A stretch of 64,000 nucleotides of DNA from Paenibacillus polygoni (GTDB taxonomy: Bacteria > Bacillota > Bacilli > Paenibacillales > Paenibacillaceae), in NCBI RefSeq assembly GCF_030263935.1, contig NZ_CP127162.1:3853501-3917500 (forward strand), written 5' to 3'. Positions 36,038 through 42,836 of this stretch are shown piece after piece (position 1 is the stretch's first letter; every line of letters starts with the position of its first letter). The translations under genes were made by a program, and so were the position numbers. The notes beneath the pieces are model-generated. The model worked only from the letters and a program-made list of their open reading frames with translations, was not told the origin of the DNA and did no database searches.

Positions 36038-36846
36038 ACAATCACTCCTTTGTGCTTCGCATATGCCCAGTGATTCGTAGGTCCATGGCCGCTTCCAATA
36101 CCCAGCGTATCCGTAAGGGCCGCTTGCACGAATTCTCTCGCGATCGATGCCGCTTCTCTCATCTCTGTACCCTTGGCTAGCTGCGCCGTAAGTGCTGCTG
36201 CAAACGTACAGCCTGTCCCATGAGAATGAACGGTATCCACTCGTCTTTCCGAAAGCTCGGTGAAAGATGTACCGTCATATACTATATCCGTTATCATATC
36301 GTTTACCGCATCATGCCCCCCTTTGATGATCACATTAGCCGCACCCAGATCGTGTAATCGTCTAGCGGCTTCCCTCCGATCCGCAATCGTTCGAATCTCC
36401 ATTCTCGTCATGACCTCTGCTTCCGGAATGTTTGGCGTAACGACCAGTGCAAGCGGAAGTAAATGCAAGATTAGAGCTTCCACCGCTTCCGACTTCAGCA
36501 GAGAGGTTCCTCCTTTGGCAATCATAACGGGATCTATGACCAGCTTATCCACACGGTATCTGCTAATCCTTTCTGCTACCGCTGCAATGATTTCACTGCT
36601 ATACAGCATCCCTGTCTTCACAGCGTCCGGTCTCAAATCAGAAAATACGGAATCGATCTGTTCTACTACAAAACGGGCAGGCAAGGGATGAACTCCCTGT
36701 ACCCCAAGCGTATTTTGCGCTGTGACTGCTGTAATCGCCGACATGCCATAGACATAAAGCTCCTGAAAGGTCTTGAGATCAGCCTGAATGCCAGCTCCGC
36801 CTCCGCTGTCTGATCCTGCAATCGTTAATGCTTTTATAACGGTCAT
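36034..36846 (-). CDS. thiD: HMP/HMP-phosphate kinase
   Basis: This 270-aa ribokinase-fold enzyme phosphorylates hydroxymethylpyrimidine and its phosphate. The motifs are [22 protein letters not shown] at the start, [18 protein letters not shown] and the anion-hole/catalytic stretch [14 protein letters not shown]. It begins 1 nt after the thiM stop region and overlaps thiE, forming a tight operon. A pyridoxal kinase activity is sometimes seen in relatives but is less likely in this context. Confidence 0.95.
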
Positions 36847-36847
36847 C

Positions 36848-37687
36848 CTAGATCTCCCCCTTACTGAACAAAGAATGGATATCTAAGACCGTTACATATT
36901 CTTCAAATGAAGAAGGAGTAAGTTTTGATAATTCATCGAGAAAAGCAATCTGAAAACTACCAGGTCCCGCCTGTCCTTTGTCCTCTGCTGCCTGAAGTGC
37001 TGCGGCTCCGTAAAAGCCAAGCCCCGCGGTGCCTGCTTCCATTATGGAAGGTTCAACAGCCAAAAAAGCTCCAATGACGGAAGTAAGCAAACACCCTGTT
37101 CCCGTCACACGTGTTAATAGAGGATGACCGGACTTCACAACATATCCCGTATCCCCATCCGTAATCACATCTTCTGGTCCGGATACAATGACGGCGGTTC
37201 CAAGCGTACGTGCAGCCCGTATGGCTAACTGCGCTCTTTCTAATGTCTCGATTTGGCCTGCGTCCACCCCTTTAACGGTCATGAATTCACCAATCAGGCG
37301 GCTAATCTCCCCTGCATTGCCTCGAATCAACGTTACATTCACCTCGCGGATAATGCGAAGGGCCGCATCTGTACGATAAGATGTTGCTCCCGCTCCTACT
37401 GGATCAAGTAATACAGGGACTCCATAAACATTCGCAGCTTTGCCTGCTACGATCATGGCGTTTAAAAGTTCCGTCGTTAAGGTACCGATATTGAGTACCA
37501 GCGCACGAGCATTTTGGACCATTTCGGCCACTTCTTCTTCTGCATAGGCCATTACCGGAGATGCGCCAAGTGAAAACAGTCCGTTAGCCGTAAAGTTCGT
37601 GACTACCGTATTTGTCATGTTATGAATTAAAGGCTGTTCTTCATGAATGCGAGTAATGAGGGAGGGAAGTTTCTTAATATTCAGCAT
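36848..37687 (-). CDS. thiM: Hydroxyethylthiazole kinase
   Basis: This 279-aa kinase salvages the thiazole moiety of thiamine. It opens PLIHNMTNTVVTNFTANGLFSLGASPVMAY and contains LLDPVGAGATSYR, IRGNAGEI and TRVTGTGCLLTSVIG, the catalytic cysteine region of ThiM. It is the first gene of thiM-thiD-thiE, about 170 nt downstream of the TPP aptamer. No de novo thiazole or HMP synthesis genes lie here, so this operon serves salvage. Confidence 0.95.
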   Translation of the reverse strand: MLNIKKLPSLITRIHEEQPLIHNMTNTVVTNFTANGLFSLGASPVMAYAEEEVAEMVQNARALVLNIGTLTTELLNAMIVAGKAANVYGVPVLLDPVGAGATSYRTDAALRIIREVNVTLIRGNAGEISRLIGEFMTVKGVDAGQIETLERAQLAIRAARTLGTAVIVSGPEDVITDGDTGYVVKSGHPLLTRVTGTGCLLTSVIGAFLAVEPSIMEAGTAGLGFYGAAALQAAEDKGQAGPGSFQIAFLDELSKLTPSSFEEYVTVLDIHSLFSKGEI

Positions 37688-37819
37688 GTTTCATCAGACC
37701 TTTCTTTCTCGAGATAAGGGAGTCTGATCTAATGTCTTTGACGGTGAAAAGATAGATAACTGAGGAATGGGATAGGACCCACATGATAAGAAGAATCATG
37801 ATTTTTTATGCAAAATGCA

Positions 37820-37847
37820 CAAAAAAACGCATGCGAAAGCATGCGTA
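37820..37847 (-). terminator. Expression-platform terminator of the TPP riboswitch
   Basis: A perfect 8-bp stem ACGCATGC/GCATGCGT with the loop TTTC is followed by TTTTTTTG on the minus strand, between the aptamer and thiM. It would stop transcription when thiamine pyrophosphate is bound. Confidence 0.85.
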
Positions 37848-37855
37848 AATATACA

Positions 37856-37946
37856 TGTTCGCTCCCTACGCTGGCATTATCCATGGCAGGTTCCACCGGT
37901 CAACAACAGATTAGTTGTACTCTCAGCTTGCTTCCGCAGGCTCCCG
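37856..37946 (-). promoter_or_regulatory. TPP riboswitch (THI element) controlling thiM-thiD-thiE
   Basis: The minus strand reads GGGAGCC near 37945, then CTGAGAGTAC (37918-37927), GGAACCTG (~37886-37893), GGATAATGCC (37873-37882) and AGCGTAGGGA. These are the invariant THI-box segments in the right order and spacing; P3 is AACTAATCTGTTGTT-like between them. It directly precedes a terminator and the salvage operon. This is a known regulator class recognised from sequence. Confidence 0.95.
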
Positions 37947-38012
37947 TTCTACGATTTAGTTTTTAGTATCCCTTCCAGTTTACACCAGGTTATTGTTATG
38001 GGCAACCAAGGT

Positions 38013-38041
38013 TTGACATTTCATCTGTTGCCGCATATTAT
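38013..38041 (+). promoter_or_regulatory. Sigma-A promoter of the MutS2-like leader
   Basis: TTGACA at 38013-38018 and TATTAT at 38036-38041 are separated by exactly 17 bp. The transcript would start near 38048 and run through the leader peptide ORF and two terminators towards the gene at 38558. Confidence 0.7.
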
Positions 38042-38074
38042 AGTTTATAACTTCTATTCAAAGGAGAGAATTTC

Positions 38075-38098
38075 ATGTCGGGGTATGTTCTTAACTAA
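38075..38098 (+). CDS. Leader peptide MSGYVLN upstream of the MutS2-like gene
   Basis: A strong AAAGGAG at 38060-38066 sits eight bases before ATG, giving a seven-codon ORF ending in TAA, about 27 nt inside the predicted transcript. Its last codons (GTT CTT AAC T, 38087-38096) form the 5' arm of a ten-bp perfect stem with 38194-38203. A ribosome at the end of this ORF would therefore block the stem, the classical design of a ribosome-mediated attenuator. No database support is available to me. Confidence 0.55.
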   Translation: MSGYVLN

Positions 38099-38203
38099 TC
38101 AAATTTCATAATGAGGATTTTCTTTTTTCGTCCCTATAGCGACGTTTATTTTTTGATGCCCTGCTATGGCGACTCGATTATCCTCGTGAAATCAGTTAAG
38201 AAC
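38087..38203 (+). ncRNA. Leader RNA domain I: long-range stem over the leader ORF end
   Basis: The nested pairs are GTTCTTAACT (38087) with AGTTAAGAAC (38194), ATTTCA (38103) with TGAAAT (38187), GAGGAT (38113) with ATCCTC (38180), and CTATAGC (38134) with GCTATGG (38163). Together they make one long interrupted hairpin. No target-site duplication flanks it, so a MITE insertion is less likely than a regulatory RNA. Confidence 0.5.
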
Positions 38204-38249
38204 AGCGGACAACATAACTCTCCAGCGGGTAGTCACCCCCCGGATATTT

Positions 38250-38326
38250 TTGTGAACGTAAGACCGTGCTGTTTTTCAGCACGGTTTTTTTGTACCTCCA
38301 TTACATCTTGAGGGTACCGTTCACAA
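38250..38326 (+). terminator. Leader terminator 1, inside a three-way junction
   Basis: CCGTGCTG (38264-38271) pairs with CAGCACGG (38277-38284) around TTTTT and is followed by seven T: a strong intrinsic terminator. It is enclosed by TTGTGAACG (38250-38258) paired with CGTTCACAA (38318-38326), and accompanied by GTACC (38292-38296) paired with GGTAC (38313-38317). The outer stem could only form after read-through, and so may act on a second state of the RNA. Confidence 0.75.
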
Positions 38327-38334
38327 GAAAGGCC

Positions 38335-38444
38335 GCGTAGATAAATGGAAATGATAGGCTTAGGATTTATGCATGCTCTGTAAGCCACAAGCTTATACGG
38401 GCTGCAGAATATACCTTCTGCAATCATTTCTACTTATGGTACGC
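38335..38444 (+). ncRNA. Leader RNA domain III: second three-way junction
   Basis: GCGTA (38335) pairs with TACGC (38440), ATAA (38341) with TTAT (38434) and GAAATGAT (38348) with ATCATTTC (38423). This closing stem encloses hairpins GGCTTA/TAAGCC (38357-38386) and GCAGAA/TTCTGC (38404-38421). It resembles a riboswitch-like junction, but I do not recognise any known class. Confidence 0.45.
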
Positions 38445-38470
38445 CACAATATCCGAGATCTCCCCCATAA

Positions 38471-38515
38471 AAGGCAGAGCAATGAGCGCAATCGTTCATA
38501 GCTCTGCCTTTTTTC
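38471..38515 (+). terminator. Leader terminator 2, just before the MutS2-like gene
   Basis: AAGGCAGAGC (38471-38480) pairs with GCTCTGCCTT (38501-38510), with extra pairing inside, followed by TTTTTT. The gene's ribosome binding site (AAAAGGAG) lies about 30 nt further on, so the gene needs read-through or a local promoter. Confidence 0.8.
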
Positions 38516-38557
38516 TATTTTTCACAACACTTTAGGAAACGAAAAGGAGCTTATCAC

Positions 38558-40558
38558 ATGAATAAGAGCAGTACACAGCGACTTGAATTTGGCACGGTAA
38601 AGGAACAACTGAAAGGTTATGCAGTATCCTATCTCGGCGAGGCTCATATAGAACAGCTCGAACCGATCATGAATGTGAAGATCATTCGTCAGAAACTGGC
38701 GGAAACAGAAGAAGCTCTAGGGCTGATTCGTTATAGTTCCAGCATTCCACTCCCTTCCCTGACGGGGATGGAAAATATCATAAATCTGCTGGGCACCGGA
38801 TATCTGTTTACAGAACAAGATTTTATGAACCTGCTGCAGTTTGTAAGAAGCTGTCATCAACTTCAGAAATACATGATCAGCAAACAAGATATCGCCCCAA
38901 GCGTGGCATCCTATGCAAGTTCTATGTATACCTTAGATTCCCTTAGGGAGGAAATAGAAAGATGTATTCATCTGGGACGAATTACGGATCAGGCTAGTAA
39001 GGAACTGGCGAAAATCCGCAAACAAGCAGCAATCTCTGAAGAACGGCTGAAAAAGAAACTAGACACTTTATTAAACAAGCACCGTTCCATTTTACAAGAT
39101 CAGTTAGTAGCAAAAAGGGGCGATCGTTATTGCCTTCCTGTTCAAAAAGAGTTTCGCAAACAGCTAAAAGGTACCATCATCGATGAGTCAGCAAGCGGCC
39201 AGACTGTATTTATAGAACCCACAGATATTTCGATGCTCCAAATGGAACTGAATATGTACAGAGTGCAGGAACAGCGTGAAGAAAGTAAAATTCTTAGTGA
39301 ACTTACCGAGCTTGCTGACTCATATAGGTATGAACTGCAAGTGAATACCGATACGGTGGGTCTGTATGATTTTCTATTAGCAAAAGCGCGTTATGCTCTA
39401 TCTATACAGGCACGATCTGTGGAAATAACAAGTGATGGCAGCATCCATTTACGTGAAGCAAGACATCCTCTTGTTAAAAACATGGTCCCGCTCGATTTCC
39501 ATATTGGTGATTCTTATCGGTCTCTCATTATTACAGGACCCAATACAGGTGGAAAAACGCTATGTTTAAAAACAATCGGTCTGCTTACGCTAATGGCACA
39601 GTCGGGTCTGCTTATTCCTGCTGGCGAAGGAAGTAAACTTAGCATGTTTGAACAGATCGCAGTCGATATCGGCGATGGACAGAGCATTGAACATGCACTG
39701 AGTACCTTTTCTGCGCACATTAAGAACATGATTGATATTCTGAGTACAGCGAGTGCATCAACTCTCGTTCTAATTGACGAAATGGCTTCTGGGACAGATC
39801 CCGGTGAAGGCACTGGACTATCGATTGCCCTGCTTGAAGAACTGCATAAAAGAAAAGCTGTCGTTGTTGCTACGACTCATTTTACCGAGATCAAAAACTT
39901 TGCAAGCAGTACACCGGGTTTTGAAAATGCACGGATGGAATTCGATACAGAAACGCTTAAACCCCTGTATCGACTAACGATTGGGCAAGCGGGACAAAGC
40001 TACGCTTTTGCAATTGCACTGAAGCTCGGGATACCGCCTCACATCATTGAACGATCAAAAGAAATTGCCGCTAAACCGGTTGCATCAGCCTTTCCATTCT
40101 CAGCAGCATCTGCTGTGACTGTACCAACCATACTGGAAAAAGATCACGCCCCCTCTAATGATGAGCATGATCAGGACGAGGAAGGACAACAGCAAGATGT
40201 ACAGCCGAAGACCCAGGAGGAGCAGCCTGTTCTCTCAAGTCATCAAGAGGCCAATGAGGAGAAACGGAAGGAAAAGCCGCTAAAAACGGGAGATCGTGTA
40301 TTGATTCCTTTTATGAAGGAGTCTGGAATTATTGTAGATACGGATACGAGAGGTCAATGCACGGTGCTCGTAAGAGGCAAACGAATTCAGATCGCTCGTA
40401 AAAGATTACAGCTTCAAATCTCTGCCGAAGAGCTGTATCCAGAAGAGTATGATCTTGATATTGTGTTTGAGTCAAAAGACGTCCGTAAGAAACGGAAATT
40501 AATGTCCAAAAGACATGTGCCTGGGCTGACGATCGAAAGAAGACCCGAGGATCTGTAA
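38558..40558 (+). CDS. MutS2-family ATPase lacking the Smr nuclease domain
   Basis: This 666-aa protein has the MutS2 layout: clamp/lever helices (~1-310) and a MutS ATPase domain with Walker A GPNTGGKT at 327-334, Walker B LVLIDE at 403-408 and the following MASGTDPGEG. STFSAHIKNMIDIL and VVATTHFTEIKNFA also fit. After about 510 comes an acidic Gln/Glu-rich linker (~530-575) and a KOW-like beta module (~580-625, KTGDRVLIPFMKESGIIVD). The C-terminal Smr domain of canonical MutS2 (~785 aa, LDLRG motif) is missing. B. subtilis MutS2 (RqcU) acts on collided ribosomes, so this paralogue could be a ribosome-splitting or rescue factor. The attenuator-like leader upstream fits induction by translation stress. 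Confidence 0.85.
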   Translation: MNKSSTQRLEFGTVKEQLKGYAVSYLGEAHIEQLEPIMNVKIIRQKLAETEEALGLIRYSSSIPLPSLTGMENIINLLGTGYLFTEQDFMNLLQFVRSCHQLQKYMISKQDIAPSVASYASSMYTLDSLREEIERCIHLGRITDQASKELAKIRKQAAISEERLKKKLDTLLNKHRSILQDQLVAKRGDRYCLPVQKEFRKQLKGTIIDESASGQTVFIEPTDISMLQMELNMYRVQEQREESKILSELTELADSYRYELQVNTDTVGLYDFLLAKARYALSIQARSVEITSDGSIHLREARHPLVKNMVPLDFHIGDSYRSLIITGPNTGGKTLCLKTIGLLTLMAQSGLLIPAGEGSKLSMFEQIAVDIGDGQSIEHALSTFSAHIKNMIDILSTASASTLVLIDEMASGTDPGEGTGLSIALLEELHKRKAVVVATTHFTEIKNFASSTPGFENARMEFDTETLKPLYRLTIGQAGQSYAFAIALKLGIPPHIIERSKEIAAKPVASAFPFSAASAVTVPTILEKDHAPSNDEHDQDEEGQQQDVQPKTQEEQPVLSSHQEANEEKRKEKPLKTGDRVLIPFMKESGIIVDTDTRGQCTVLVRGKRIQIARKRLQLQISAEELYPEEYDLDIVFESKDVRKKRKLMSKRHVPGLTIERRPEDL

Positions 40559-40672
40559 GGTGAAAACTTTATTTCATTTGCGCTATTCTGTTCGTTCACA
40601 CAGAGCCTCTGCGGCATCCTGCAGAAATATGATAAACTAAATAAAATCAGTCTTCAGTAAGAGAGGTTCTAT

Positions 40673-40882
40673 ATGAACACATGCTCCATGAATAATCCGC
40701 TGATCTGCCCTTTATGCCGTAAACCTAATCACTGTGCTTATGCTGCGGGAAGACCTGCCGAGGAGTGCTGGTGTATGAATCTACCTGTCCCCAAACGACT
40801 GCTTTCGCAAATTCCAGACGAAGAAAGAGGCAAATCTTGTGTATGTGAAGCCTGTGTAAGAGCGTTTAAGGCAGACTCCTGA
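40673..40882 (+). CDS. Cysteine-rich CWC-family protein
   Basis: This 69-aa protein has eight cysteines in the CWC pattern: CPLCRKPNHC, then EECWCMNLPVPKRLL, then CVCEACVRAF. The family is thought to bind metal (probably zinc) and is of unknown function. GAGAGG precedes the ATG. It follows the MutS2-like gene by 114 nt in the same direction and ends at a terminator, so it may share its transcript. Confidence 0.88.
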   Translation: MNTCSMNNPLICPLCRKPNHCAYAAGRPAEECWCMNLPVPKRLLSQIPDEERGKSCVCEACVRAFKADS

Positions 40883-40886
40883 AATT

Positions 40887-40948
40887 AAAAAGCACCCTAT
40901 AGATTGGTCACTCGATGCGAATGTCTACTCTTGCAGGGTGCTTTTTTT
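40887..40948. terminator. Bidirectional terminator between CWC and MFS genes
   Basis: AGCACCCT (40891-40898) pairs with AGGGTGCT (40935-40942), with A and T runs on both sides, serving the convergent genes. Confidence 0.75.
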
Positions 40949-40969
40949 AAATCAGCTATGTAAACTGGC

Positions 40970-42244
40970 TTATGCCTGAAATACTTTCTCCGTAACATGA
41001 TCAGAGCTTGGGAGTTTGCGGGTGGTCTTATCAAACAACCAGTACAGACCAATGAATAACACAGACAGTCCGCTTACCCCAATAATCACTTCACTTCCAA
41101 ACACTTCTCCTAGGATACCCCCGCATAACGATCCAATAGGCGCTGCAATACCGCTGAGGCTGTAGGATGCGGAGAATACTCTGCCTAATAGATGCTGAGG
41201 GATTGCTTTTTGGATATAAGAATTGATCAGAATATTGGTCACTCCGCCGGGAACCCAAGACAAACCATATATGATCATCATCATCCAGATATTTGGGCTG
41301 TGCACACTAAGGGTCCACAATATACCGCTCACCGAAAAAGCGGTTGCATAGATAAGACCCATACCGATCCTCTCCAACTTCAAAAAAGGAGCGATCAAGG
41401 CTCCAAACATGCTTCCCATCGCTTGCGCCATCAGTAAAAGCCCATATAGTTCTGGTCCCCCATGTAATTTACTAAACGCAGGCAATACCACAAACGTGGC
41501 TCCCCCGACCAAGTTAATGAGGAGCATCCCCCAAAGAAGTCTTGAGAAAGATTTGCCTAATAGAATGTGGATCCCTTCTAAGAGTTCTGTTTTATAGTGC
41601 TGTAATATCACCGATATATTTTCCTTTTCAACGGGCTGACTCTGTTCAATTTGCTGCTTATGCTTCGGAATTCGGAGGAAGGAGAATAAAATAGCGCTGA
41701 TGATAAATAGGACAGAATCCAGTAAGTAAATGGAGACAGCTCCTACAATTACAATGAGTACACCAGATACTGCATTACAGAAGGTATCGATCCCTTGACC
41801 TGCAAAGGTGAAATAGGAGTTCGCTTTGGTGAGATCTTTTTTAGGGACAAAAGAGGGTAATGACGACATTTGTGCGGGGTATATGAGTGTGTTGAAGATC
41901 GATATAATGGGTGAAATGATAAGTACAAGAACAACATTCAGCTGACCCAAATAACTTGCTGCCGGAATAATCAATAATAGAAAAGCTTGGATGAGCTGAG
42001 TATGGATGAGCAGATGCCGTATCGATATCCGGTCTATGATCGGTCCGCTGAAAAATTGAATAAACCTGGGTATTAGCGAGAGGAAGCCAGCGAGCCCTGT
42101 ATAAAAAGTAGAGCCGCCAAGCTCCGATACCAGCCACATTGCCGCTACGGCATAGATGGAATCTCCTACATTTGTGACAAGTCTTCCAAAGAACATAAAT
42201 AGAAAATTCCGATTCAAGAACAGATTCATAGATGAATCACTCAC
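40970..42244 (-). CDS. MFS transporter, multidrug-efflux type
   Basis: This 424-aa major facilitator protein has about twelve helices. It starts NLFLNRNFLFMFFGRLVTNVGDSIYAVAAMWLV, a pattern typical of the MFS_3 (enterobactin/macrolide exporter-like) group. The ATG overlaps the stop of the upstream regulator gene by four bases, so the pair is coupled. Export of a drug or toxic metabolite sensed by that regulator is likely; the substrate is unknown. Confidence 0.9.
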   Translation of the reverse strand: MSDSSMNLFLNRNFLFMFFGRLVTNVGDSIYAVAAMWLVSELGGSTFYTGLAGFLSLIPRFIQFFSGPIIDRISIRHLLIHTQLIQAFLLLIIPAASYLGQLNVVLVLIISPIISIFNTLIYPAQMSSLPSFVPKKDLTKANSYFTFAGQGIDTFCNAVSGVLIVIVGAVSIYLLDSVLFIISAILFSFLRIPKHKQQIEQSQPVEKENISVILQHYKTELLEGIHILLGKSFSRLLWGMLLINLVGGATFVVLPAFSKLHGGPELYGLLLMAQAMGSMFGALIAPFLKLERIGMGLIYATAFSVSGILWTLSVHSPNIWMMMIIYGLSWVPGGVTNILINSYIQKAIPQHLLGRVFSASYSLSGIAAPIGSLCGGILGEVFGSEVIIGVSGLSVLFIGLYWLFDKTTRKLPSSDHVTEKVFQA

Positions 42245-42741
42245 CCTTTCCCCTCTTGCTTAGGCTCTACCGATATGATCTTGATTCCAATACTAAATTC
42301 TTGTGTATCTTCGTTCCTCACAGCTGTAGACTTGTTAACCCAACGTTCCAAAAAGGATCTGAATTCACTCGTCATTTCTTTTTTCTGCACTTCCGTTAAC
42401 TCCATTCGGATGCTTAATTTGGTCGCATCTGCGGACTCATATTGATCACTGAGTACGGGATCAATGATCTCCGCTCCCTCCGTGTTAAACCATTTCGACT
42501 TGGATTGGTAATACTTTTCGATAACCCCCCCGTTCTTTTTCTCCTCGACCATTTCTAGTAGACCGCCATCATACAATTTTTTGATGTGGTAATGAACATT
42601 TCCGCCGGATTCACCAAGAAGATCAGCGACTTGTTTTGAGGTTTTCGGAGAATCGAGCAAATGCTTCATAATTTTTACTCGCAGCGCACTGCTTAATAAT
42701 TTGGATTGTTGAACGGAAATATTCAGCATTTCCTCATTCAT
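42241..42741 (-). CDS. ArsR-like winged-helix regulator of the MFS transporter
   Basis: This 166-aa protein has an N-terminal winged helix (LSSALRVKIMKHLLDSPKTSKQVADLLG, then GNVHYHIKKLYDGGLLEMVEE) of the HTH_20/ArsR-like kind and a C-terminal effector or dimerisation part. No CXC metal site is seen. ATG 42741 follows AAAGGGGAA; a longer frame to 42780 runs through the operator region. Two inverted repeats upstream are candidate autoregulatory operators. It probably represses itself and the exporter. Confidence 0.88.
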   Translation of the reverse strand: MNEEMLNISVQQSKLLSSALRVKIMKHLLDSPKTSKQVADLLGESGGNVHYHIKKLYDGGLLEMVEEKKNGGVIEKYYQSKSKWFNTEGAEIIDPVLSDQYESADATKLSIRMELTEVQKKEMTSEFRSFLERWVNKSTAVRNEDTQEFSIGIKIISVEPKQEGKG

Positions 42742-42762
42742 AAATGAGTTCCCCTTTATCAA

Positions 42763-42836
42763 TCTGTTTTTACAGATCATCGATCTATAAATTTAGATTA
42801 TCACTCCAAGATGGAATTGTAAACCAATTTTTACAA
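42763..42836 (-). promoter_or_regulatory. Operator/promoter of the HTH-MFS operon
   Basis: TTGTAAA (42817-42823) and TTTACAA (42830-42836) form a perfect inverted repeat with a 6-nt spacer. TCTGTTTTTACAGA at 42763-42776 is a second palindrome; both contain TTTTTACA. On the minus strand TTTACA in the first repeat lies 17 bp before TAATCT, a possible -35/-10 pair. The rest of 42837-43090 shows no gene or clear structure. Confidence 0.55.

Follow-up and report, generated by a model that had tools for sequence, protein, structure and literature searches.

A conserved seven-codon leader ORF points to ribosome-mediated attenuation of an Smr-less MutS2 paralogue in Paenibacillus and of further drug-response-type genes

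How is a second gene for a MutS2-like ATPase expressed if two transcription terminators separate its promoter from its ribosome-binding site? This question is raised by a locus of Paenibacillus polygoni within a 64,000-nucleotide stretch of contig NZ_CP127162.1 (positions 3,853,501 to 3,917,500, forward strand) of a single-contig genome of 4.94 Mb; this stretch is referred to as the window, and all coordinates are those of the window. The initial annotation had proposed that a ribosome stalling on a seven-codon leader ORF opens a ten-bp stem and allows read-through into the gene. The promoter, the AAAGGAG sequence, the ORF, the stem, both terminators and the gene with its ribosome-binding site were all recovered at the places where this annotation had put them, and the leader region (38013-38560) is composed as follows.

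38013..38041, + strand: sigma-A-type promoter, TTGACA-17 bp-TATTAT, agreeing with the consensus at 11 of 12 positions
38060..38069, + strand: Shine-Dalgarno sequence of the leader ORF, AAAGGAGAGA, with AAAGGAG at 38060-38066
38075..38098, + strand: leader ORF MSGYVLN-stop, ATGTCGGGGTATGTTCTTAACTAA, a member of the M-x-x-x-V-L-N-stop family
38087..38096, + strand: 5′ arm of the long-range stem P1, GTTCTTAACT, formed by the last codons of the leader ORF
38129..38144, + strand: hairpin CGTC/GACG directly before the pause-like motif, from reading of the sequence
38146..38151, + strand: TTNTTT motif (TTATTT), candidate NusG-dependent RNA polymerase pause site
38194..38203, + strand: 3′ arm of P1, AGTTAAGAAC, belonging to the antiterminator strand if free
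38198..38206, + strand: candidate antiterminator strand AAGAACAGC, complementary to 38268-38276
38218..38223, + strand: CTCTCC, anti-Shine-Dalgarno strand, pairing with GGAGAG (38063-38068) of the leader Shine-Dalgarno sequence
38263..38291, + strand: terminator 1, ACCGTGCTG-TTTTT-CAGCACGGT-TTTTTT, listed by two hairpin scans
38469..38514, + strand: terminator 2, immediately 5′ of the ribosome-binding site of the gene, listed by two hairpin scans
38558..40558, + strand: MutS2 paralogue without Smr domain (MutS2′), 666 aa, with its own ribosome-binding site AAAAGGAG

The leader ORF reads ATG TCG GGG TAT GTT CTT AAC TAA, and since its Shine-Dalgarno sequence can pair with CTCTCC, the entire ORF can sit inside one long hairpin. 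Compared with dinucleotide shuffles, the segment 38041-38293 folds with a z of -6.0 and the segment 38041-38560 with a z of -10.5, and no shuffle was as good in either case. A simple consensus terminator scan listed neither terminator 1 nor terminator 2; two further scans listed both, and one of these also reported a weaker hairpin between them. In relatives, a TTGACT..TATATT-like site is found ahead of the leader. Two single-stranded elements are conserved as well, namely AATTNCATA 3′ of the stop codon and GCGGATATCA 3′ of the 3′ arm of P1. The AATTNCATA-type element of the window locus lies at 38102-38110, right after the leader stop, and its ATA is invariant in 47 diverse loci.

The initial proposal had been made dependent on the conservation of the ORF and the stem in relatives. 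Orthologues of MutS2′ were detected in 70 of 75 genomes of the same genus (E <= 1e-120), in 126 of 148 genomes of the family (E <= 1e-130) and in 48 of 299 genomes of the class (E <= 1e-125). We inspected the upstream regions of 169 loci: 71 from the genus, 75 of the 110 other matches in the family, which were picked to span genera, and all 23 loci from other families of the class. The 71 genus loci comprise the 70 genus matches and five named records after removal of four duplicates (L009, L010, L012 and L013, equal to L006, L005, L007 and L008, respectively); from the genus alignment, L043, L053 and L054 were omitted as identical to other rows, and L039 and L065 were added by hand. A short upstream ORF with its own Shine-Dalgarno sequence was present together with P1 at 165 of the 169 loci, a count that used 12 variants of the P1 arms defined after inspection of the sequences. 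Among the four exceptions, the ORF of L136 is truncated, and the combination was not obtained for L083, L135 and L151. The missing P1 of L083 can be traced to a misplaced start; a covariance model detects a leader in this genome (G121, 98 bits), and in the genome of L135 (G205) the same model gives just a weak leader (34 bits). Leader ORF, stem and one or more terminators recur in the family, in other families of the class and in a few genomes outside the class, and the order and sequence of the leader are kept between lineages whose further-upstream sequence visibly differs. Thus, both ORF and stem proved to be conserved, and the stem shows compensatory changes.

Within the 165 leaders, the start codon is ATG in 164 and GTG in one, and the stop codon is TAA in 149, TGA in nine and TAG in seven. 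The peptide has seven residues in 142 cases and eight in 23, the stop being placed one codon later in 22; exactly one extra codon is seen in L178 (MSAKVVLN), L238 (MSVMVVLN) and L268 (MSAVVVLN). This variety of stop codons, together with length changes by whole codons and the kept start, is the pattern of a translated ORF. Residue 4 can be any of 12 different amino acids. By comparison, the codons of the 5′ arm vary little: the first is GTT in 164 leaders and ATT in one, the second CTT in 155, CTG in seven and CAG in three, and the third AAC in 158, ATC in six and AGC in one. Inside the genus, 70 of the 71 loci end exactly in GTTCTTAACTAA and L029 in ATTCTTAACTAA. At some loci V-L-N is exchanged for V-Q-I, V-L-I, V-L-S or V-L-K, and exceptions to the peptide rule are L249 and L250 (MSVFCS-stop), L235, in which the usual stop is lost, and L252, which has no clear ORF.

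The long-range stem P1 was evaluated in 47 diverse loci. Standard pairs make up 96.4% of its cells, compared with 28 to 50% in control stems that were slid along the sequence, and none of 500 shuffles was as good. Changes on both sides were found at three of the ten pairs (five cells), values that none of 500 shuffles reached and that a slide by -2 likewise shows. A compensated P1 is exemplified by L264, in which GTTCTGAACTA pairs with TAGTTCAGAAC, while L257 combines GTTCAGATCTC with GAGCTCTGAAC at the price of one mismatch. The genus loci differ hardly at all in P1, the deviations being a G-U in L055 and a mismatch in L029; RNAalifold covariation is accordingly near nil there, and all of the covariation is contributed by other genera.

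Downstream of P1, every one of the 165 loci has a terminator-like hairpin, and 151 have two or more; with a cruder terminator finder, 7 of the 165 had no hairpin, 77 had one and 81 had two. To evaluate the predicted switch, nascent transcripts ending in the terminator 1 loop were folded for 164 loci, once with the 5′ arm of P1 hidden, as a stalled ribosome would hide it, and once with it free; at some loci (e.g. L185), another hairpin may have been mistaken for terminator 1. When the 5′ arm is hidden, an average of 8.1 pairs connects the 3′ arm to the 5′ half of terminator 1, and at least four antiterminator pairs are formed at 156 of the 164 loci. With the 5′ arm free, by contrast, P1 forms (10.9 pairs), the antiterminator is left with a mean of 0.33 pairs, and at least four pairs remain at 2 of the 164 loci. 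Shuffling of the terminator half lowered the mean from 8.75 to 4.09 pairs, and the real sequence exceeded its control at 86 of 94 diverse loci. At the window locus itself, 8.5 antiterminator pairs are expected with the 5′ arm hidden and 0.01 with the arm free, the former value not being above that for a shuffled terminator half (8.5 versus 8.6). On RNA duplex energies alone, shuffled terminator halves were beaten at p <= 0.05 in just 44 of 164 cases. Preventing terminator 1 costs a mean of 10.3 kcal/mol with the 5′ arm hidden as compared to 13.6 kcal/mol with the arm free, and the cost is lower with the arm hidden at 150 of the 164 loci. Terminator 1 is favoured at equilibrium even with the arm hidden; hence the antiterminator must win kinetically. 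By prediction and comparison, the leader thus contains a stem that overlaps the ORF and excludes an antiterminator, with a terminator downstream. A second antiterminator directed against terminator 2 was also considered and came out weak (mean z -0.58, 64 of 81 negative, five below -2).

The loop of P1 contains a TTNTTT motif at 57 of 95 diverse loci, compared with 26% in mononucleotide shuffles, and at 48 of the 95 the motif lies at most 5 nt from a hairpin, compared with 13% in the shuffles. In B. subtilis, NusG-dependent pausing occurs at TTNTTT, a motif that is used in the vmlR leader (PMC9226507) and has been remarked upon in the msrDL leader too (PMC10314930). The window locus has two such motifs: the script chose 38120-38125, and we assigned the pause site to 38146-38151, where TTATTT occupies the position of GTTTATTT in relatives.

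In our judgement, the leader is likely to be a ribosome-mediated transcription attenuator that controls a dedicated MutS2 paralogue, and its trigger would probably be ribosome-targeting antibiotics. Under conditions without stress, a ribosome would translate the seven-codon leader and depart, upon which the 5′ arm at the end of the ORF could pair with the 3′ arm. P1 would then bury the leader with its Shine-Dalgarno sequence, terminator 1 would form and transcription would end. When the ribosome is held at -V-L-N-stop by an antibiotic that targets it, or by anything else that slows elongation or termination, the 5′ arm would stay covered; the free 3′ arm could pair with the 5′ half of terminator 1, and RNA polymerase would read on. 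The MutS2 paralogue would be made in this situation, probably to split or protect stalled ribosomes. The hairpin and the TTNTTT pause in the P1 loop probably serve to hold RNA polymerase until the ribosome arrives.

The reach of the leader was followed with a covariance model built from it (R1), the E-values of which are rough. In the own genome R1 gives one strong match, the window locus (103 bits), and the next best match, at 23.5 bits, falls on the other strand of the same place. Matches at E <= 1e-3 were obtained in 126 of 146 genomes of the family and in 77 of 398 genomes of the class; among 398 genomes of the phylum, 15 had a match at E <= 1e-4. A plasmid search gave no match, and a pattern match on a viral contig (L260) was without the leader arrangement and was taken as unrelated. 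Leader and gene largely occur together: of 20 family genomes in which no leader was matched, 19 were likewise without a MutS2′ match, the exception (G118) having MutS2′ and a diverged leader (L140, MRTGVQIS). Conversely, 3 of the 22 family genomes without a MutS2′ match carry the leader: in G098 (L243) it precedes BpsA, and in G087 (L255) and G137 (L257) it precedes a MutS2′-like gene below the threshold.

To see what else follows the leader, 45 matches chosen mainly as lying away from known MutS2′ genes were fetched; seven further second matches in the class, all in one family (f22), lie outside these 45, and the downstream gene was inspected for some of the first matches. By tblastn, the gene behind the leader is BpsA-like in 24 cases, MutS2′ in 10 (with a weak assignment, 69.7 bits, for L255), a GNAT of family a in two, a GNAT of family b in two, APH-like in two, an ABC exporter in two, an ABC-F protein in one and neither of the sought genes in two. 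A Pfam check (PF01861) covered eight of the BpsA-like genes, and the L222 protein has a match (E 1e-19) to a branched-polyamine synthase of known structure, 5xnc. BpsA-like genes of Bacilli stand behind the leader at L222, L226, L235, L236, L242-L247, L249, L250, L253, L256 and others; the literature places branched polyamines predominantly in thermophiles (PMC12979288). The APH-like pairing is seen in two genera (L227, L251), with a protein of 343 aa, the leader ending VLS and a TAG stop; by sequence this protein has no solved relative, its Pfam support is weak, and its relatives are called ‘phosphotransferase’ or ‘hypothetical protein’ where they are named. GNAT family a occurs behind the leader in two families (L228, L252) and GNAT family b in two genera (L248, L254), neither of them having an NCBIfam match above the cut-off. 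The ABC exporter (582 aa) is found in two genomes of one genus (L262, L266) behind the leader MIKGVLK-stop, whose stem GTTCTTAAA / TTTAAGAAC is compensated; a second, partner-like ORF follows the exporter. The ABC-F protein (L263) exceeds the NCBI cut-off for ribosomal protection (463 versus 380), and its closest entries in the PDB are 8buu and 6ha8, both labelled ExpZ, which we take to be VmlR2 and VmlR. Two weak phylum matches, at L265 (glycosyltransferase 8 downstream, E 1.9e-5) and L267 (beta-lactamase-fold protein, E 6.7e-5), are not counted as established targets. The target-gene copies at L151, L238, L240 and L242 look interrupted by an internal stop or split frames.

The initial reading was therefore largely right, and the leader reaches further than it had claimed, being located before several other gene families as well. 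A leader common to a ribosome-protection ABC-F protein and to enzymes of the drug-modification type fits a sensor of translation stress or antibiotics. The strongest hint as to the inducer is this company of targets, with ribosome protection, efflux, a kinase and acetyltransferases. That one leader is shared by several drug-response-type genes points to a common antibiotic-response switch, which is apparently undescribed. It is quite possible, if somewhat less likely than not, that M-x-x-x-V-[LQ]-[NISK]-stop leaders are a portable sensor of drug-stalled ribosomes across Bacillota and run a distributed antibiotic-response regulon that comprises Smr-less MutS2, branched-polyamine synthesis, ABC-F protection, efflux and enzymes of the drug-modifying type. 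If so, the Smr-less MutS2 would be a ribosome-splitting resistance factor comparable to HflXr, HflX being a GTPase whereas MutS2 is an ABC-type ATPase. Branched polyamines and MutS2′ would then add two new types to the inducible defences against ribosome inhibitors. If the proposed attenuation holds, a common group of soil bacteria would have a second MutS2 reserved for times when ribosomes jam. This would make it possible to test directly what MutS2-type ATPases contribute to antibiotic tolerance, and the shared leader would be a key to a gene set whose common trigger one reporter could reveal. It also suggests a link to translation stress for branched polyamines, which have so far been tied mainly to heat tolerance (PMC12979288).

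Since BpsA-like genes are so frequent behind the leader, the regulon could instead be a polyamine response, with polyamines sensed at translation termination. Short polyamine-responsive uORFs are known, such as MAGDIS of AdoMetDC and speFL, and GNAT families include polyamine acetyltransferases. Both the share of leaders before a BpsA-like branched-polyamine synthase (24 of the 45 fetched mainly away from known MutS2′) and the description of branched polyamines as stabilising ribosomes in thermophiles (PMC12979288) would be in line with this idea. However, the leader also precedes genes for an ABC exporter, for MutS2 and for an ABC-F protein of the ribosome-protection type, MutS2′ is the most widespread target, and comparison of the GNATs with polyamine acetyltransferase models gave nothing at E <= 0.001; we regard this explanation as unlikely.

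A classical attenuator of amino-acid supply, in which a shortage of Val, Leu or Asn arrests ribosomes at V-L-N and thereby turns the gene on, would accommodate the location of these codons exactly in the 5′ arm and the near-invariance of V. Yet Leu and Asn are replaceable by Gln, Ile, Ser or Lys, the leader has no run of regulatory codons, and none of the seven target families looks like Val, Leu or Asn biosynthesis or uptake, which renders such an attenuator very unlikely.

The conserved single-stranded elements AATTNCATA and GCGGATATCA could be taken as marks of a riboswitch-like device, in which a ligand or protein drives the RNA switch and the mini-ORF is incidental. This we consider highly improbable, as the stops vary between TAA, TAG and TGA while the start is kept, the length changes amount to one whole codon or a later stop as detailed above, and the leader matches no Rfam family. 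Rfam models applied to 36500-42000 of the window at E up to 5 gave a TPP riboswitch and one chance-level match, both on the other strand, and at the gathering cut-off ten leader loci gave only a tRNA. Finally, it is scarcely credible that the region is ordinary intergenic DNA with a promoter, a chance stem and the terminators of neighbours, the gene being transcribed from another start: terminator 2 right before the gene would indeed block a transcript from the upstream promoter, but the covariance model finds the arrangement before other genes, and its order and sequence outlast the divergence further upstream.

For the ribosome-mediated attenuator that we favour, the nature of the target is of importance. 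The description of the gene product as a MutS2-like ATPase without Smr domain was borne out. MutS2′ matches TIGR01069 over residues 3-504 with 596.8 bits (cut-off 400); a Pfam search places the ATPase domain alone above the cut-off, with no Smr domain, unlike the full MutS2 that this genome also encodes (L002), which has one; and the fold matches that of 7qv3. Nor is there a Pfam match to MSSS/KOW, the SH3/KOW domain through which MutS2 is brought to collided ribosomes, and the pairwise alignment to residues 599-694 of 7qv3 is weak (0.9 bits). The full MutS2 with Smr (785 aa) is 37% identical to MutS2′ over 511 residues. Among the 120 homologues listed, of 7999 scored, PF00488 is the sole precomputed Pfam domain in all, and the Walker-type residues are invariant across 27 aligned homologues. 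A protein with 96% identity is present in Paenibacillus sp. J45TS6. In the AlphaFold2 model (mean pLDDT 78.6), the MutS2 core and ATPase are followed by a linker without order (506-571), a small beta barrel at 578-621 and, at 640-652, a helix. The model's best Foldseek match is the integrative YabR-MutS2 model 9a5o and its second is 7qv3, MutS2 on a collided disome (E 5e-45). In the place of the Smr domain stands a strongly conserved acidic/basic tail, ELYP-DYDLDIVFE-K-RKKRK (residues about 626-660); the basic tail is kept with small variations in the ten homologues printed. By homology, MutS2′ may rescue or split collided ribosomes. It resembles B. subtilis MutS2 (RqcU) in its core and ATPase domains, in its fold match to 7qv3 and in the invariant Walker residues, and differs from it in lacking Smr and a Pfam match to MSSS/KOW, in its predicted disordered linker, in its own conserved basic tail and in its proposed control by a leader. 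B. subtilis cells that lack mutS2 are described as hypersensitive to chloramphenicol, tetracycline and erythromycin (PMC10897456).

The principle of attenuation is known, and several described systems are akin to the present leader. The leader msrDL of the ABC-F gene msrD (MYLIFM-stop) is likewise a very short ORF, with a stop that is mostly UAA and with a TTNTTT motif, and there a stalled ribosome prevents an intrinsic terminator (PMC10314930), as is proposed here; one target of the present leader, L263, is an ABC-F gene as well. In msrDL, erythromycin prevents the release of MYLIFM at UAA; induction is weaker when the stop is UAG or UGA instead, and stalling persists with one more codon (PMC10314930). 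The present leader differs in its peptide (MYLIFM occurs in none of the 165 leaders), in P1 arms that are about 100 nt apart, in its two terminators and in its several unrelated target families. In Listeria, hflXr with rli80 is described as a second copy, of the resistance type, of a ribosome-splitting factor under leader-ORF transcription attenuation (PMC6310831), to which a second MutS2 corresponds here; unlike the present seven residues with VLN, rli80 has 14 aa with an RLR motif. The vmlR, VmlR2 and cplR leaders share a mini-ORF in alternative hairpins ahead of a ribosome-acting ATPase, and vmlR also a NusG pause (PMC9226507, PMC10201436), for which we have a candidate; furthermore, L263 encodes a close relative of 8buu and 6ha8. 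Their uORFs MIN, MK[L/Q] and MR[I/M], however, have three codons and no sequence kinship with ours, and each serves its own gene. Ribosome-mediated attenuation by bmrB of the ABC exporter bmrCD in B. subtilis (PMC4191407) has its parallel in the exporter at L262 and L266. In contrast to our leader, bmrB is a 53-codon ORF that itself harbours stem-loops, and the main text of that paper does not contain the string ‘VLN’ (PMC4191407). Because the leader peptide differs, we do not assign the leader to any named family. In a literature search covering few subscription journals and no bioRxiv preprints, neither the leader peptide strings nor a paper pairing MutS2 with a uORF was found, and none of the titles or abstracts among the matches listed dealt with the present leader. 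The leader family and its targets MutS2′ and BpsA, and their arrangement as a shared cassette, are thus apparently undescribed.

Lastly, the genes next to the locus were noted. On its 5′ side, a TPP riboswitch (37846-37957, - strand) scores 53.2 bits, just below the Rfam gathering score of 54.3, and precedes a hydroxyethylthiazole kinase gene (36848-37687, - strand). On the 3′ side of the mutS2′ gene lies a gene for a small cysteine-rich CWC protein (40673-40882, + strand), beyond which an MFS transporter (40970-42244, - strand) and an ArsR-type regulator (42241-42780, - strand) are encoded.
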